A stretch of DNA of 64,000 bases, from contig OZ036007.1 in NCBI GenBank assembly GCA_964035015.1, positions 4,694,997-4,758,996 of the forward strand, given 5' to 3'. Position numbers and translations under genes: made by a program. Under the pieces are notes generated by a model. The model was not told the origin of the DNA. It made no database searches and was given only the letters and a program-made list of their open reading frames with translations. Positions 6,340-58,328 of this stretch are shown piece after piece; position 1 is the stretch's first letter, and each line of letters starts with the position of its first letter. This DNA is from Corallium rubrum. Taxonomy: Eukaryota > Cnidaria > Anthozoa > Scleralcyonacea > Coralliidae.

Positions 6340-7610
6340 CAAATTATGGGTCGTTTCTTTCCAATTTAGTCCTTTTTCTATTTTCTGATATTCATATAAA
6401 GAGTTGCAATATTTCTTGGACAGGAAGCTATGAATGGACTATAAATACATAATTTTAAGTTTATTTCCATCCTTTTTTCTATTTCTTAAATTGAATTAAT
6501 CATCTGGAACTGAGTTTGACAAGTCAGTTTAACGTAAACACATATTTTTATCCAACAAGACAACACCTCACAATAACCCAAGCGGGAAATTTGGGGAGTC
6601 TTCACAGCTGCATGACAGCTAGATTTTCAGAGAGTGCCAAGGAAAATTAACTATACCTACAGGTCACTATATATATATATATATATATATATAATAGTTC
6701 AATCTACAGACACGAGTTTTGCTGTACTTACAGCTATCAGTGTATAGCTTGGAACAATCTAGATGTGAGAACTTCGCTAATCATATATACAACGGCTTGT
6801 GGGATTGTATATAAGTAGTGTGCACATCTAGAGAGCGTACTACGATGAGCGACTCGCGCGTGACCATTCTCTATAACCCTTAATATCTACATATAATTCG
6901 TGACTAAAGCTCTCATGGTAACATATATTACATGCATTAGACTAGATACTATCTTTGCCATCTTAGATGGCAGACTGAACGCTGGGAAACGAAGGAAATG
7001 AAGTTCAAATTCATGAACTTCTGTCGTCTGCATGAACAAATTTCAATAATCGTTATTTTATCTGACAACATTGCTAACTGCATTTTTAACTACTCGTTTG
7101 CGTCGGGTGTGAAAGACAAATGAGACAATGAGCTAGACGATCGTTATCCACAGAGATATCTCGGAATGGAACCGAGACTTCTGGAAGTTTCGCTGTTTAA
7201 ATCGCAATCAATAAAAAAATGCCAAATTGTCATGTAACAGGCCGTCCGCGTCAAAACTGACGGCCGGATTCGCGTCACTACAGCCATCGTTTAGTTTAAT
7301 ACGACAACACTTTTTCCATAAAAAGTCGATATGGATTTTGATTTGGGTCCTAGGATGATGCTTGCCAGTTTGTAATCTCGACTGTGCATGAATCAAAATG
7401 ACGCGTTCTGCGTGAGCGTAATGACATATTTCAATCCATAACAGCAGGTTAAGGCCGTAGGATTCATTTTTATTTACACTCAGTACCGTCTTCCGAAATC
7501 GATATAGAGAATTTCTCAGCTTGACGTTATGAATTGAAATAAGTCTTATCCCGACGCAGAACACGCGCCATTTTGATTGGCAGTCGAAATTATGAACTGG
7601 CTTATGAATA
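6340..7610. other. No supported gene
   Basis: AT-rich sequence with a 26-bp TA run. The minus frame 7208-7615 has no recognised domain and abuts the LINE tail. Confidence 0.45.
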
Positions 7611-12150: not shown

Positions 12151-14201
12151 TTACTTCTTCGATTCAGTCGCTGGTGTACGCCATTGCATGATTGCTACTC
12201 CTAATACAACAGATACGACAGTAAATCCTTGTGCAACGACACGTAAACGCATCATATTTTGTTGTGTCCGTGAGTTTCCTCTTTGAAATGATATCAAACC
12301 ATATGTTAACGCAGCAACAGTTCCAACAAGACCTTTAAATGAAATAGACATTTTAAAATAAATTTTATTTTTACTTTTACTCTCAAATCATTAATAATTC
12401 ATGAACCAAAAACAAAAGAAATTAATGTTTAATCAGTACTTTGAAATCGGAGGAAAAGTACTAGTACTTTGAAATAATGCAAAGTAGGTTTTCAAAGTCT
12501 TGGGACTTTAAAATAAGGCAAATTATATTACGTTTCAGAGGTATCTTCAGAGTTTTGAGTTTGAAAAATCAGTTCAAATACTCGATGTCAGACCTTACCG
12601 GGATTACAAAGCCCTCGTGCATTAAAAAGGCTCACCTTCGGCTCGCCTTTTCAAAAAGCACTCGGACTTTGAAATCCCGGTAAAGTCCTCCGTTTCGTAT
12701 TTGAACTATTACTTAAAGATTGCAGAAACATATTTCAAAAAATGTTGAAGACAAATAACTCCGTTAAGACCGGTCCCAAGCCCGGCTGAAAAAGGAGGAG
12801 GGTTGGGTGTGAGGCTATAACCACCTCACCCTGTAAGAAAGAAATCCGAATGGAAATATGCCTGATATGGAAAATATTTAAGTCTCAAATTTCAATATTG
12901 TGCATGGACAGTTAGTTCCAGAGAATATCAGTACCTCTCCCTTCTCAAGCACTTTTGGGAAGAGGTGGATGTTTGCTTTACAAATGGGCAGAACAGCTGG
13001 TCAATGCTTGATTGCTTTTAGTGGAAGTGGGGTAATTGATGAATTCCCATCCTTGCTGGGGGGGGGGGGGGAGGGTGTATCTGGAACTACCCATTTGGCT
13101 CAAATGTTGAGTCGTTGAGTCTCACCTAATACTGGATTCTTAACTAAAATATTTTTCAATATAGGGTTAGATGAATGTAAATACTAATACAGTATATACA
13201 TATGTTTTTACAGCATTGGTGGTGTGCATCTTATTATCTTATTACATCATTGTCACCATGTTGGATGAATTTGATAAAAGTTTTTCATCATCTGCAATGT
13301 TTATAATTTCATCCAACCAGGGGTGGTGCCAGAAATTCTCCAACACAGCGGATACAGGGGCTAAAGTCCCCAACAGGGGGGCTAGTAGGGGGCTCTGGGT
13401 GGCATCCTCTCCCAGAAAATTTTCAAAATATGAACGTCTAGAATAGCTTTTTCCATCTTGTCCATGTAAAATTATCGCAATAACCAGCAAGCTACAGCAC
13501 CTATTTTCATGCTATCAATTTGTTGAAGACTAAATTGTGGTCATTAACCTTTACCATTCTCGTTCAATATTGCAGACAGAAAATGGAATTTTATGTGTTG
13601 TAATTATTAATACTGTTGACTTCTACACAATATATACCGTATCCTGTGTTTCAAAAGGAGTTTTATTTCCCTATTAAAGCATTAATTACTGACTTGTCTG
13701 GCTTAATCAGTTAAAAAGTTCTTTGCCAATTGTTAAAAATAAAATTTTTCTTCCAGATCATTCCCCCGACAAATCTGTAAATTTTCCCTGATGGGGGGGG
13801 GGGGGGGGGGGGCGAGGGTTCCCCAATAGGGGGGCTGTAGCCCCCTCTGCCCCCCTCTGGTGCCACCCCTGCATCCAACATGGTGAAAATATCTAAGGGA
13901 TTGGTTGCACACCACCTATACAATAACTGTATTGTATACAGTTATATTAAACAGCATATCATGTCATATACTCTCCCGTGTTTCTATAGAATTATAGAAT
14001 CACGGCTTTCAGCCAATCAGCACGCGTTTTCAGGAAGGTTATTTCACAAAACAGTAAATTATACATTATCAACATGATTTAGCAAACTTTACCAAAAGGC
14101 ACAAAAGGATTCTCTTTGCACTTCCTCCACATTTTCTCTTTTGACGATTCTGGCCTGTAACTTGGAAACCAGAAGTCATCGGCCTCTTTTTCTGGTTTCA
14201 T
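12151..14201 (-). CDS. HIGD2A: HIG1 domain family member 2A-like (two exons)
   Basis: A small inner mitochondrial membrane protein; the HIGD2A family helps assemble cytochrome c oxidase and supercomplexes. Exon 1 is 14201-14093 and exon 2 is 12332-12151, joined G|GT with donor GTAAAG and acceptor TTTAAAG, giving 96 residues (human about 106). Exon 1 encodes FPSYRPESSKEKMWRKC and KENPFVPFG, matching the family's pre-domain segment. Exon 2 encodes the two-helix HIG1 domain: VAALTYGLISFQRGNS, MMRLRVVAQGF and VVSVVLGVAIM. An ATG at 12351 could suggest a shorter intronless frame, but it would fall in the intron. The gene diverges from MRPL35, with 130 bp between start codons. The intron holds a G-rich inverted-repeat element. 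Confidence 0.9.
13250..13885. mobile_element. G-rich inverted-repeat element in the HIGD2A intron
   Basis: Ends TCACCATGTTGGATG and CATCCAACATGGTGA. Inner segments AGGGGTGGTGCCAG (13319) and CTGGTGCCACCCCTG (13857) are also inverted. It contains a run of about 25 G at 13793-13812. Confidence 0.5.
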
Positions 14202-24351: not shown

Positions 24352-27300
24352 CTGCAACGAATAAGAAATGTATTCAGTAGCGCTCCGTCGTGATGACATC
24401 ACTAGGGACCTTAAGATCTACGACGGCAACTTCGAGGACGACGTCCTTCAAACAAAAGCATTCTTCTTGCAAAACAAAGATAATGAATAATTTCTAGTCC
24501 CAAGAGTAATCTGAATACCGTCCTCGCTCTGTATACAACGCCACTCAGAGCATCTTCACGTCTTCAGGACGACGTTGACTCGTGGGGTGATGAGAACTGT
24601 TGTCTGAGATTGCCTTAACATTGACACTGCAACGGTTTCAACACTTTGAAAATTATAAAACAAGCTTCAAGTATTGAATACCGTAGTCAGTTAACCGTGA
24701 CTTCTTTTTAATGCTAAAATTTGAGTTGCTTTTTAACCGCCGTCATCGTCGTAGCTTTTTACCCATAATAGCGATGTTCAGATCACACTTCCACTACCGC
24801 TGCCGTAAATATAGTTTAATTTTAATTTAATTTACTAAATTTTCCACTTAACGTGTGGCAGGAGAGAGGAACAGAACTTTCGTCCCAATTGACACCAAAC
24901 TCCTATGTGTAGACAACTAAAGCCGGTTTTCCACTAGGCGACTTTTTTCGCGCGAAGCGACTTTTTCTTTTGTCTCATGAGCTCTGAGCTGGAACTAATC
25001 AGAAATCTATTGAATTCGAACAAAAGAAAGTCGCTTCGCGCGAAAAAAATCGCCTAGTGGAAAACCGGCTTAAGACCTAGGTGTTGATTTTACGGAGGGA
25101 GGAAAACTGGAGAACCCGGCGAAAAACCCTCGGAGCACAGGAGAGACCAACTAAACTCTACTCACATAAGTCCCAAGCTGGCGGAGGACGGGGTTATTCC
25201 CAAACGGTCACCCATCCAAATACTAACCCCGTCCAACCGGGCTTAACTATTGGTGAGAGGCAGCGCCCTAACAGCACATGCCACCCGTGCTCCCCGTTTA
25301 CACGATGCCGGTACAATTTGAAAACGGAACAAAATCATGCCGTTTAGGCCTTGCGTTTACACGATACCGGCACAAAAACAACATGAAATGTTATATGCTG
25401 TATTTCCGTTTTCAAAATGTACCGGTATCGTGTAAACGGGGTCTAAGTTTTTACGTTCAGTAATGGTCGCACGTCTCAAACCTAGTGCAAAAAGAAAGCG
25501 TTTTACGGTACTAGGATTAAAACCAACTACGACTACAGAACGAAAAAACGAACATTATATCAGTTTAACCACATTTACGGTAGCAGTAGCGGTAGTGGAA
25601 GTGTGATCTGAACCTCGCTAATATTGCAGTCCGAACAATAGCTGATGGCTCATTTGCAATCATTTGAAAGTCAATTTTGGTTTGTTTGTCCACATTTTAC
25701 GCAGCTCGACGGTACGCCATTGAATTGAACTGAATCGAGTTGAATTGAATTAATTGGCGGGAATTGAATTAATTAGCGGGAATTGAAGTAATTGGCGGGA
25801 ATTGAATTAATTGGCGGGAATTGAATTGAATAAAGATAAAAGAAGTGCCTATGAAACGAAAATTAAGTCTGTCTTATTTGAAAGAACACTTAAAATGACA
25901 AAGTAACAACTTTTGCAGCATGGTCAATCGAGATATGGTTTGGAAACTCGGCAAACTTCAAAGCGCCTATAATGAGCTGTGATTTTATGTTGAACCGTAC
26001 CTTACACCGTGCACATCCTTTGTTTTAGGTTTATTAATATTTAAATAGCACGGTTGAGTGATTGAACTGAAACGTTGCTATTCGATAATTTGTCCATTAT
26101 ACTAAAATACAATGGGTTCAGTGACCGTGCACCGTGCACAAAAATGCATAAAGGCGAACAAAAAGATAGAAAAAAGCTGAGTTGATGGCTATGTTTGCAG
26201 TTTTGTTGCTTCATTCTTGACATATTTCAGTTTGTTAGTTTCAGAAATTGCAGCTTGATGTTAGTAATAATTGTCAGTTGTTTGCTGTACAAGCTGTGTT
26301 AGTTAGTAATACTCAGAAAAACTCTGAGCTCTAAGCGGGACTCGAACCCACAGCCTTCTGAATGCTAGCCAGACGCTAATTAACCTTGCTCCGCTATCTG
26401 AGTTCTAGTGGCTCAATGGTTAGAGCGTCTGGCTAGCATTCAGAAGGTTGTGGGTTCGAGTCCCGCTTAGAGCTCAGAGTTTTTCTGAGTATTACTAACT
26501 AACACAGCTTGTACAGCAAACAATTGACAATTATATTTCAGTTTCTTCGTTATATCAACGGTGCCAATTTAAATATCTTTAGATCTCACCTCATGTTTTA
26601 CCAATAGTATATGTATACCTACCCTGCGAGTCATAGCCCCTTTCCGACCTACGCAGGCTTCGGGGGAAAGTGGGCTCTGCCAACAAACTCGATATTTCTT
26701 TTTGAGCATGCGTGAACGGTTGCCAAGATACTATTTTGGGTCCAGGCTCTAACGCGTCACTTCCTATTTTCCTGCTTACGCGTGTTCGTAAACTAGAACT
26801 TGTTTGACCAGTTTAAAACCTGACTGACTCGCCCCAAACTTGGGGCGAAGATCGAGTTTGTTGGCAGAGCCCACTTTCCCCCGAAGCTTGCGTAGGTCGG
26901 AAAGGGGCTCTGACTCGCAGGGTAATGTATATTTACTATAATTCATTTCATTCTATATATACCTGGGAGTCCATCAAATGTTTCAGGGCGACATACGCCT
27001 TTCTTGCTTCACTCAGTCCATCACCAAATTTCATTTCAGCTGCCATCTCTGCTTCCCTCTTCGACAAATCTAACTCATGTTGCTGACTAGTCTTCAACTC
27101 CTCGATTTCTTTATCTGAAACAACGACGAAAAACGTTCGTTATTAAGGACTTATTAACCGAGTGTGAGGTCTGTACGGGAAAGTATTTGCCTGAGGTTTT
27201 CGTACAGACGGAGCGACGAAGGAGCGAGGTTTGTGCGATAAAACCGAGGGAAAATACTTTCCAGTGCAGACCGAGCAAACGAGGTTAATAAGGAATTTAT

Positions 27301-44983: not shown

Positions 44984-45140
44984 TAAGTAATATTGGGCAT
45001 TTCTCTCGATTACATAGCATGTTCTAAGGATTTTGGGTGAAGGAAAATTCGAGTGTAGAATATATACATTTTAAGACCAAACCGGGACCAGTTGCGAAAA
45101 ATGCAACTACACAGGCCTTCCGGCAGGAATTGAACCCACG
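44984..45140 (-). mobile_element. tRNA-derived SINE-like element, copy C (truncated)
   Basis: Matches copies A and B from TAATATTGGGCATTTCTCTC through GGAATTGAACCCACG, then breaks off directly into the 24-bp satellite. It lacks most of the tRNA-like head. Satellite units lie on both sides (from 44949), so it inserted into, or was captured by, the array. Confidence 0.7.
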
Positions 45141-48100
45141 ATATATATTTTTTCGCTTTGCTGTAACTATATATTTTTTCGCTTTGCAAAACTATATATT
45201 TTTTCGCTTTGCTATAACTATAGATTTTTCCGCTTTGCTATAACTATATATTTTTTCGCTTTGCTATAACTATATATTTTTTCGCTTTGCTATAACTATA
45301 TATTTTTTCGCTTTACTATAACTATAGATTTTTCGCTTTGCTATAACTATATATTTTTTCGCTTTGCTATGTAATATATATTTTTTCGCTTTGCTATGTA
45401 ACTATATATTTTTTCGCTTTGCTGTATAACTATACATTTTTTCGCTTTGCTATGTAACTATATATTTTTTCGCTTTGCTATAACTATATATTTTTTCGCT
45501 TTGCTATAACTATATATTTTTTCGCTTTGCTATGTAACTATATATTTTTTCGCTTTGCTATAACTATATATTTTTTTCGCTTTGCTATAACTATATATTT
45601 TTTCGCTTTGCTATGTAACTATATATTTTTTCGCTTTGCTATAACTATATATTTTTTCGCTTTGCTATAACTATATATTTTTTCGCTTTGCTATGTAACT
45701 ATATATTTTTTCGCTTTGCTATAACTATATATTTTTCCCTTTGCTATAACTATATATTTTTTCGCTTTGCTATAACTATATATTTTTTCGCTTTGCTATA
45801 ACTATATATTTTTTCGCTTTGCTATGTAACTATATATTTTTTCGCTTTGCTATAACTATATATCTTTTCGCTTTGCTATAACTATATATTTTTTCGCTTT
45901 GCTATAACTATATATTTTTTCGCTTTGCTATAACTATATATTTTTTCGCTTTGCTATAACTATAAATTTTTTCGCTTTGCTTTAACTATATATTTTTTTC
46001 GCTTTGCTATGTAACTATACATTTTTTCGCTTTGCTATAACTATATATTTTTTCGCTTTGCTATAACTATATATTTTTTTCGCTTTGCTATAACTATATA
46101 TTTTTTCGCTTTGCTATAACTATATATTTTTTCGCTTTGCTATAACTATATATTTTTTCGCTTTGCTATAACTATATATTTTTTCGCTTTGCTTTAACTA
46201 TATATTTTTTTCGCTTTGCTATGTAACTATACATTTTTTCGCTTTGCTATAACTATATATTTTTTCGCTTTGCTATAACTATATATTTTTTCGCTTTGCT
46301 ATAACTGTATATTTTTTTCGCTTTGCTATAACTATATATTTTTTCGCTTTGCTATAACTATATATTTTTTCGCTTTGCTATAACTATATAATTTTTCGCT
46401 TTGCTATAACTATATAATTTTTTGCTTTGCTATAACTATATATTTTTTCGCTTTGCTATAACTATATATTTTTTCGCTTTGCTATAACTATATATTTTTT
46501 CGCTTTGCTATAACTATATATTTTTTCGCTTTGCTATGTAACTATATATTTTTTCGCTTTGCTATAACTATATATTTTTTCGCTTTGCTATAACTATAAA
46601 TTTTTTCGCTTTGCTATAACTATATATTTTTTTCGCTTTGCTATAACTATATATTTTTTTCGCTTTGCTATAACTATATATTTTTTCGCTTTGCTATAAC
46701 TATATAATTTTTTCGCTTTGCTATAACTATATATTTTTTCGCTTTGCTATAACTATATATTTTTTCGCTTTGCTATAACTATATATTTTTTCGCTTTGCT
46801 ATAACTATATATTTTTTCGCTTTGCTATAACTATATATTTTTTCGCTTTGCTATAACTATATAATTTTTTGCTTTGCTATAACTATATATTTTTTCGCTT
46901 TGCTATAACTATATAATTTTTTGCTTTGCTATAACTATATATTTTTTCGCTTTGCTATAACTATATAATTTTTTGCTTTGCTATAACTATATATTTTTTC
47001 GCTTTGCTATAACTATATATTTTTTCGCTTTGCTATAACTATATATTTTTTCGCTTTGCTATAACTATATCGCTTTGCTATAACTATATATTTTTTTCGC
47101 TTTGCTATAACTATATATTTTTTCGCTTTGCTATAACTATATATTTTTTCGCTTTGCTATAACTATATATTTTTTCGCTTTGCTATAACTATATATTTTT
47201 TCGCTTTGCTATAACTATATATTTTTTCGCTTTGCTATAACTATATATTTTTCGCTTTGCTATAACTATATAATTTTTTGCTTTGCTATGTAACTATATA
47301 ATTTTTTGCTTTGCTATAACTATATATTTTTTCGCTTTGCTATAACTATATAATTTTTTGCTTTGCTATAACTATATAATTTTTTGCTTTGCTATAACTA
47401 TATATTTTTTCGCTTTGCTATAACTATATAATTTTTTGCTTTGCTATAACTATATATTTTTTCGCTTTGCTATAACTATATAATTTTTTGCTTTGCTATA
47501 ACTATATATTTTTTCGCTTTGCTATAACTATATATTTTTTCGCTTTGCTATAACTATATATTTTTTCGCTTTGCTATAACTATATAATTTTTTTCGCTTT
47601 GCTATAACTATATATTTTTTTCGCTTTGCTATAACTATATATTTTTTCGCTTTGCTATAACTATATATTTTTTCGCTTTGCTATAACTATATATTTTTTC
47701 GCTTTGCTATAACTATAAATTTTTTCGTTTTGCTATAACTATATATTTTTCGCTTTGCTATAACTATATATTTTTCGCTTTGCTATAACTGTATATTTTT
47801 TCGCTTTGCTATAACTATATATTTTTTCGCTTTGCTATAACTATATATTTTTTCGCTTTGCTATAACTATATATTTTTCGCTTTGCTATAACTATATATT
47901 TTTTCGCTTTGCTATAACTATATATTTTTTCGCTTTGCTATAACTATATATTTTTTCGCTTTGCTATGTAACTATATATTTTTTCGCTTTGCTGTAACTA
48001 TATATTTTTTCGCTTTGCTATGTAACTATATATTTTTTCGCTTTGCTATAACTATATATTTTTTCGCATTGCTATGTAACTATGTATTTTTTCGCTTTGC

Positions 48101-48174
48101 TATAACTATAAATTTTTTCGCTTTGCTATAACTATATTTTTTCGAAGAAGAAGAATTTCAAATGAAGTCGAATC

Positions 48175-52907: not shown

Positions 52908-53022
52908 CGCTTACCTCAAGCAGACTTTTGAGGTAAGCGAAAATCTATATTTGCTCTAACTCTATATGTTATCGAGCACTCTTTGCGTTTCGTAGACCAA
53001 AACCCACACGTATATATATATA

Positions 53023-53303
53023 TAGCATGTTCTAGGGATTTTGGGTGAAGGAAAATTCGAGTGTAGAATATATACATTTTAAGACCAAACCGGGAGCAGT
53101 TGCGAAAAATGCAACTACACAGGCCCTCCGGCAGGAATTGAACCCACGACCTTGCGATTCTAGTGCAATGCTCTGACCACTGAGCCACGGAGGCCGTTGC
53201 CGAGAGCTCGATCGCGAGTTCTGTATATATAATAAGGTGGTAATGCCAGGAGAGAATTGGGTATATTATAAATGATATTGGGCATTTCACTCGATTACAT
53301 AGC
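53023..53303 (-). mobile_element. tRNA-derived SINE-like element, copy A
   Basis: On the minus strand 53122-53194 is tRNA-like: A box GTGGCTCAGTGGTCAGAGC, B box GGTTCAATTCC, and acceptor arms GGCCTCC/GGAGGGCC. It continues with a unique body including GTTGCATTTTTCGCAAC and ends near TAGCATGTTCTAGGG. Two other copies are in the window (44984-45140 and 58058-58328). Confidence 0.75.
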
Positions 53304-53336
53304 CCAATATCATTTATATATATATACATACATATA

Positions 53337-53592
53337 AAGGCCGAAACGGTACCGTCTGTAGTTAGATATCGCTCTATGGCCTTTAGGTCATATTGAGCGC
53401 TCTACAGGATGAGCCATTGCTGCTTACGCATTGTGCGCACGCTCACTGCTTGCAGTTTGAGCGCTCTGGCATGGTTTTGATGTCCCACAATTTGTGAGGC
53501 ACCAAAGGTGACTGTAAATAGCAGTTACCTTCATCCTGCTCATCAGCACTACACTGATGAGGCCCAAAAGGCCGAAACGGTACCGTCTGTAG

Positions 53593-53594
<2 letters not shown>
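53337..53594 (+). mobile_element. Retrozyme-like dimer fragment with hammerhead ribozyme
   Basis: Two copies of the sequence ending CGAAACGGTACCGTCTGTAG lie 231 bp apart (cleavage-site C at 53356 and 53587). The second copy is a complete type I hammerhead; the first keeps only the 3' half. The 231-bp unit between cleavage sites equals one monomer. This is the arrangement known for animal retrozymes, which spread through small circular RNAs. It is flanked on both sides by TA repeats. Confidence 0.8.
53548..53593 (+). ncRNA. Type I hammerhead ribozyme, complete core
   Basis: Core CTGATGA at 53554-53560 and GAAA at 53574-53577. Stem I: ACTACA (53548-53553) pairs with TGTAGT (53588-53593). Stem II: GGCC (53561-53564) pairs with GGCC (53570-53573) across a CAAAA loop. 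Stem III: A-C-G-G (53577-53580) pairs with CCGT (53583-53586) across a TA loop. Predicted self-cleavage after C53587 (GUC). Every invariant hammerhead position is satisfied. Confidence 0.88.
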
Positions 53595-53666
<72 letters not shown>

Positions 53667-58057: not shown

Positions 58058-58328
58058 GAAAGGAAAATTCGAGTGTAGAATATATACATTTTAAGACCAA
58101 ACCGGAACAGTTTCGAAAAATGCAACTACACAGGCCTTCCGGCAGGAATTGAACCCACGACCTTGCGATTCTAGTGCCATGCTCTGACCACTGAGCCACG
58201 GAGGGCGTTGCCGAGAGCTTGATCGTGAGTTCTGTATATATTAAGGTGGTAATGCCAGGAGAGAATTGGGTATATGATAAGTAATATTGGGCATTTCACT
58301 CGATTACATAGCGTGTTCTAAGGATTTT
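58058..58328 (-). mobile_element. tRNA-derived SINE-like element, copy B
   Basis: About 95% like copy A over the tRNA-like part (58130-58203) and body. Its ends are shifted about 20 bp around the unit relative to copy A: it starts at GAAAGGAAAATTCGAG and carries GCGTGTTCTAAGGATTTT at the other end, followed by CCTTCACCCAAAATCC, the inverse of that junction. Confidence 0.75.

Follow-up and report, generated by a model that had tools for sequence, protein, structure and literature searches.

A hammerhead retrozyme family of Corallium rubrum ending in (TA)n repeats, with a possible link to Penelope-like elements

Background

The DNA analysed here, a 64,000 nt stretch of a Corallium rubrum contig (the window), raises the question of how a short non-coding sequence that specifies a self-cleaving RNA comes to be written into a chromosome, and by whose machinery. 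An earlier note, made from the letters of the window, had described the locus as a hammerhead retrozyme captured as a dimer fragment, originating from a circular or multimeric RNA copied back into TA-rich DNA. Penelope-like elements (PLEs) have been named as strong candidates for the mobilization of animal retrozymes, on the basis of their occurrence in the same genomes, their tandem arrangement and their type I hammerheads (PMC7229834), and retrozyme repeats are stated in a review to show no conserved motif pointing to a partner (PMC7761336).

The insertion and its unit

On its sequence, the locus holds 1.12 units of a metazoan retrozyme that is non-coding and non-autonomous (Table 1). The copy overlaps itself by an exact 29 nt repeat, 53336-53364 being identical to 53567-53595 at a spacing of 231, which widens to 34 nt on admitting a single G-to-T difference in the window's 3' copy. 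Hence the 3' half-copy that the earlier note placed exactly 231 bp upstream is real, as is the one full monomer from cut site to cut site, although the element's start moves from 53337 to 53336, where the repeat begins, and the 'dimer fragment' becomes a fragment of 1.12 units. Within the window, no repeats of the element beyond the 29-34 nt overlap were found, and no LTR was seen. The 231 nt unit has a GC content of 49.4% and stops in all six frames, so that the retrozyme contains no open reading frame for a PLE reverse transcriptase or GIY-YIG domain, and its predicted folding is better than that of 200 out of 200 shuffles (z -4.36).

From 53588, just past the cut site, the unit RNA reads UGUAGUUAGAUAU and the DNA at the end of the insertion reads TGTAGTTATATAT. 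As the insertion reaches beyond the cut site, the RNA template would have been uncut there, and hence a circle or multimer rather than a cut linear monomer, which supports the suggested origin from such RNA.

Table 1. Positions in the window of the retrozyme insertion, its component parts and a decayed copy of a second family
Feature	Position	Strand	Remarks
Decayed copy of second retrozyme family (275 bp unit)	6671-6760	-	3' end also in (TA)n
TA-rich 5' flank	53313-53335	.	...ATATATATATACATACATAT
Retrozyme insertion, 1.12 units	53336-53594	+	29 nt exact repeat, 231 apart; other copies with same 3' end
Upstream half-copy	53336-53364	+	Stem II 3' strand, GAA, stem III, cut site, stem I 3' strand
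One full unit between successive cut sites (predicted circle)	53357-53587	+	231 nt, non-coding
Predicted blocking hairpin, 8 bp	53539-53561	+	CUCAUCAG (53539-53546) / CUGAUGAG (53554-53561)
Stem I	53548-53553/53588-53593	+	6 bp
Core CTGATGA	53554-53560	+	
Stem II	53561-53564/53570-53573	+	4 bp
GAA	53574-53576	+	
Stem III	53577-53586	+	A-U, C-G and G-C pairs around loop GUAC; entire 10-mer palindromic
Predicted cut site	after C53587	+	Base pairs of hammerhead verified
Element 3' terminus	53588-53594	+	Shared, to within a few nt, by 45 of 55 loci
(TA)n tract (putative target and primer)	53594-53664	.	

The hammerhead ribozyme

The type I hammerhead at 53548-53593 (+) is complete, with three stems and every core base, as had been claimed. 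It is the single hammerhead found by a motif scan of both strands of the window, and 60 dinucleotide shuffles yielded none of equal stem strength and two weaker ones across the whole set. The covariance-model check proposed in the earlier note returned a match when Rfam Hammerhead_1 (RF00163) was run on a short stretch (31.0 bits, all pairs standard, E 9.3e-6 over 551 nt), although this lies just under the curated gathering score of 34; the match appeared in the short-stretch scan only, being absent from the lists of two whole-window Rfam scans. Duplex prediction for helix I gave an internal loop and a 3 bp extension when the circle's 3' strand was used, and not with the genomic 3' flank.

A dispersed family with a common 3' end

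The assembly to which the window belongs, comprising 474 Mb in 312 contigs, contains 452 exact matches to the hammerhead pattern and 321 to the pattern of the 3' junction when up to one mismatch is allowed, with none for either reversed-pattern control; the unit is thus far from unique, and tandems of up to 4.8 units occur among the loci read, in keeping with the multi-unit copies that the earlier note had anticipated. A DNA search of the assembly gave at least 111 matches from the best 40 of 503 candidates. Among the matches listed, a stretch of contig C203 (1394708-1400933) holds 28 neighbouring forward matches, 92-99% identical, and two short reverse pieces.

The ends of the family were studied in a sample from contig C1 (1.48-76.3 Mb) of 55 arrays, picked by their hammerhead and not by their junction and together containing 77 of the 452 ribozymes; several share flanking repeats, so that not every array is an independent case. 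In 45 of them the array gives way directly to (TA)n a few nucleotides past the cut site, compared with 1.1% of random points in the window, and 33 of these 45 standard ends read TGTAGT(TA)n. The ten ends failing this strict test include three with imperfect TA (L070, L071 and L086), two in which TA is joined 4-5 nt before the cut site (L045 and L053) and five with a 3' end elsewhere (L044, L052, L073, L084 and L087). TA is also present in the 5' flank of 33 out of 55 arrays, against 2.0% of random window points, although it is missing from that flank at 20 of the 45 standard loci. The TA-rich setting that had been remarked on is more than a backdrop, being where members of the family usually attach.

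The 5' boundaries behave differently from this nearly fixed 3' end. Array lengths range from 0.24 to 4.81 units (28 of the 55 exceeding 1.05, and 22 falling short of 0.95), consecutive exact ribozymes within arrays lie 228-237 bp apart (230 or 231 bp in 14 cases out of 22), and the 5' ends are scattered over much of the unit. Their densest 5 nt window contains six ends, a density that random sets reached 757 times in 5000, and 486 times in 5000 once five TA-sited ends were set aside; neither gives a clear signal of clustering. Similarly, no signal of target site duplication (TSD) was detected in the 17 C1 loci with a 5' flank that a stricter TA rule counted as non-TA, where the longest shared word averaged 5.0, against 4.8 in 272 mismatched pairs; flanks made of TA would, however, mask a TSD. 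Arrays of this kind, their 3' end nearly fixed, their 5' ends ragged and some of them longer than a full turn of the unit, are as expected if a circular or multimeric RNA were copied by target-primed reverse transcription.

Other hammerheads and repeats

A second retrozyme family, with a 275 bp unit, carries a hammerhead of its own (CTACA CTGATGA GCTGTAGTACAGC GAAACACGTGTC TGTAG). At eight sites its ATTGAAC passes into a TA-rich repeat, and three internal copies continue through ACTATGTACG.

Further hammerheads were seen in the assembly. One of a third type (CTGCA...TGCAG; L083:2046-2111, +) leads into (TA)n. Five other loci were read among 47 matches listed: L090, L091, L092 and the variant L094 constitute another dispersed family, ccctg CTGATGAGACC...GGTCGAAACGTGCGTC caggg, with no (TA)n within the 361 nt read, and L093 has a hammerhead-like motif approximately 100 nt upstream of a simple repeat of the TATG/TA type. 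The L090-type family has 19 matches of equal score (38.0 bits) among those listed, three of which were read. In viral and bacterial sequence collections, the forms of the hammerhead motif searched for went unmatched; one viral contig with a hairpin and a hammerhead match (L001) was dropped, since its stem II pairs poorly by eye and a few chance matches are to be expected, on a hand estimate, from a collection that large.

The window itself includes several other structured or repeated sequences. A Type-P1 twister ribozyme lies at 12752-12806 (+), with a conserved core and a score of 47.3 bits (gathering score 67.2; E 1.3e-9 in 351 nt), its core string occurring once in the window and the loci read; twisters in RTE retrotransposons are mentioned in a review (PMC7761336). 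A tRNA-derived SINE-like repeat is found at 53000-53230, 58060-58241 and 45011-45141, the latter two being 95.6 and 96.9% identical to the first, with tRNA-like parts at 53123-53194 and 58134-58205 on the minus strand. Two head-to-head tRNA-Ala (AGC) sequences overlap by two bases at 26326-26475, a 5S rRNA-like sequence at 25176-25288 (-) scores 33 bits, below its cut-off of 38, and a satellite at 45142-48142 comprises around 114 copies of a 26 bp unit.

Penelope-like elements of the genome

A search of the assembly for GIY-YIG domains gave at least 143 matches from the best 150 of 1845 candidates. Stretches of 841 nt downstream of ten GIY-YIG matches in plus-strand long open frames, representing six families, were compared with the retrozyme ends. 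Tracts of (TA)5 or longer were present in eight of these PLE-like stretches and missing from two; the corresponding figures were 10.8% for stretches taken at random from the window and 23 of 90 for flanks. A minimal hammerhead with a palindromic stem III was found in six, belonging to three families, and not in the other four, compared with 0 of 2000 shuffles, in a scan written after the candidates had been seen and allowing a one-nucleotide bulge that three family D matches need. The check for a reverse transcriptase covered one of the six families, D, whose tandem copy L105 matches RVT_1 (3.3e-10) in an open reading frame 741 aa or more in length.

Where individual PLE-like copies end varies. 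For instance, L098 and L103 of family D end at the same base in (TA)n and L102 ends further on, while a tandem-internal copy continues through TATAGTA. Likewise, L095 of family E ends in TTTATG(TA)n, and its sister L096 continues through TATGTATA to end later in (TA)n. L097 (C20:8833220-8834060) ends in (TGTTG)n/(TGCTG)n, not (TA)n, so that the use of further kinds of simple repeat is possible, and L101 has no TA tract in the stretch read. PLE ends thus appear to vary within a family and to be less fixed than those of the retrozyme, but alike in kind. PLEs are proposed as the partner of the non-autonomous retrozyme, which is not itself a member of that group.

A predicted hairpin over the catalytic core

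Immediately upstream of the ribozyme, an arm complementary to the catalytic core is predicted to form an 8 bp hairpin in which the whole core is paired and the stem I strand sits in the loop. Folding in several contexts gave the hairpin a probability of 0.86-0.99 and ribozyme stem I one of at most 0.014, and the predicted circle has an energy of -83.5 kcal/mol, compared with -75.8 when the ribozyme is forced, in calculations that ignore tertiary contacts. When the hairpin arm was scrambled, stem I reached a mean probability of 0.46-0.48, up from about 0, and exceeded 0.5 in 18 of 40 permutations in the local context and 23 of 40 in the circle; as these are only part of the permutations, the arm is not the sole competitor of stem I. 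An 8 bp complement to the core just upstream of it arose in 14 of 20000 shuffles, and one of at least 7 bp in 105 of 20000, in a test made after the hairpin had been seen.

Truncation removed the arm from six C1 ribozymes; of the 71 that retain it, 67 have it intact, and the copies are too alike for covariation to be informative. Genome-wide, 471 sites combine the hairpin with a looser hammerhead pattern. When one unit of the second family was folded, its core was also predicted to be paired, with a different partner. Most metazoan circles are described as leaving the ribozyme free (Cervera and de la Pena, PMC7229834), and a hairpin-hidden core would, if the prediction holds, be an exception among metazoan retrozymes. 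It would also hinder the very cleavage that the model set out below needs.

Proposed mechanism of mobilization

We propose that the retrozyme is copied by (TA)n-primed reverse transcription, most likely by a PLE enzyme, from a circle or an uncut multimer, with the hairpin predicted to keep the circle closed, and give this reading as a whole a probability of roughly 0.7. The hammerhead would cut tandem or read-through transcripts, and the resulting 231 nt RNA would be ligated into a circle, which the 8 bp hairpin, by pairing the catalytic core, may keep closed until helix I displaces it. Genomic (TA)n DNA would anneal to UAGAUAU just past the cut site and act as the primer, and a reverse transcriptase, its likeliest source being the PLEs of the same genome, would then copy the circle or an uncut multimer. 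Synthesis may pass around the template more than once and stop at variable points, leaving 5'-truncated partial tandems. The single G-to-T difference at the 3' end of the window's insertion is exactly the change that a (TA)n primer on UAGAUAU would write.

One rival concerns the identity of the template, namely that a linear, uncut multimeric transcript was copied rather than a circle. Retrozymes of coral, mussel and axolotl occur as abundant circles (PMC7229834), which tells against it, and we consider it unlikely, if still to be reckoned with: the DNA left by a linear uncut multimer and by a circle would be indistinguishable, tandem source loci extend to 4.8 units, and the hammerhead is predicted to be blocked, so that uncut multimers may abound.

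A second alternative concerns the (TA)n, which would be a tail made by the element and not a pre-existing target. Some LINEs carry microsatellite tails, and the 20 standard loci lacking TA in the 5' flank are what such a tail would leave. However, the 33 of 55 loci with TA on the 5' side too favour a target, as does the observation that some 3' flank repeats, such as that of L042 where it recurs in L038 and L052, adjoin (TA)n at places lacking a retrozyme (in a noisy screen, among the matches listed). We therefore judge a self-made tail to be improbable, and return to (TA)n as the site at which copying would be primed.

The proposed enzyme source could likewise be mistaken, the mover being a LINE and not a PLE. 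Retrozymes of Nematostella are reported with 15 bp LINE-like TSDs (PMC4918200), whereas the 17 loci examined here gave no TSD signal, and it is with PLE-like copies that hammerheads and (TA)n ends are shared in this genome, in a comparison that covers PLE-like 3' ends. On balance a LINE is as improbable as the self-made tail, and PLEs remain the preferred source.

Spread as satellite DNA through unequal crossing-over, with no RNA involved, suits the head-to-tail units and the 28 neighbouring forward matches listed on C203, but is disfavoured and highly improbable in view of one 3' junction common to 321 copies, 5' ends that vary and 22 of 55 loci shorter than 0.95 unit. That the hammerhead is a chance resemblance, as its score below the Rfam gathering cut-off might suggest, is refuted as far as the sequence goes by its 452 exact copies and by the 60 shuffles, which give none equally strong.

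A more tentative extension, which we hold to be possible though doubtful, joins three elements: retrozymes may parasitise PLE machinery by a rule common to both, the TA-like primer site past the cut annealing to (TA)n much as is proposed for Terminons at telomeric repeats; the core-hiding hairpin may keep the template uncut and circular; and a 1.12-unit copy might release a full unit. In such a copy the one 5' ribozyme half reaches two 3' halves, in type II and type I arrangements, and might thereby release the 231 nt unit by a double cut. This last step is an argument from topology; at equilibrium, the upstream 3' half is predicted to pair only negligibly with the downstream 5' half in the type II arrangement, with stem I at 0.02 or less.

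Significance

The (TA)n terminus common to the retrozyme and PLE-like copies, and the predicted core-hiding hairpin, would be additions to the known picture. The terminus could be a partner-indicating motif, testable in any genome with retrozymes, and the predicted hairpin would explain in a simple way why circles carrying a ribozyme remain closed in animals, which has been stated to be a puzzle. In a literature search of accessible article text, with the supplement and figures of PMC7229834 outside its scope, neither feature was found described for animal retrozymes.

Comparison with known systems

In the features looked at, the window retrozyme belongs to the known metazoan non-LTR retrozymes: it has a type I hammerhead with a full catalytic core, its non-coding unit of 231 nt lies within about 170-400 bp, its GC content of 49.4% is under 50% (a figure legend in PMC7229834 gives under 45%), and it has multiple dispersed copies, dimers to multimers among them. 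It is near in size to the 220-245 bp coral retrozymes, and those of Acropora millepora, as described in the available text, are similar in possessing type I hammerheads, non-coding units of approximately 220-245 bp, tandem copies, GC under 50% and strongly self-paired RNA (PMC7229834). By description rather than by sequence, the nearly fixed (TA)n 3' terminus and the predicted core-covering 8 bp hairpin set the Corallium family apart from them.

Plant LTR retrozymes likewise carry a hammerhead, produce circular RNA and have a ribozyme blocked by self-pairing in the predicted circle, the circle itself being a prediction in the present case, but theirs is a type III hammerhead accompanied by LTRs, a primer-binding site and 4 bp TSDs (PMC4918200), whereas here the hammerhead is of type I and no LTR was seen. 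A core-hiding switch is reported for viroids and plant retrozymes, and said to be absent from most animal ones.

PLEs bearing minimal hammerheads differ in that the retrozyme lacks an open reading frame and has a longer hammerhead, with a three-pair stem III and a four-pair stem II. There are nevertheless likenesses to PLEs, Terminons and Athena (PMC3846280, PMC12477314), in which a full and a 5'-truncated copy form a partial tandem and targets are simple and AT-rich; Penelope elements in particular are described as preferring simple AT-rich targets and forming partial tandems (PMC3846280). Similarly, Terminons are proposed to attach through telomere-complementary repeats beside their hammerhead (PMC12477314), a target-complementary repeat in the same position, right next to the ribozyme, as the TA-like site of the retrozyme described here.
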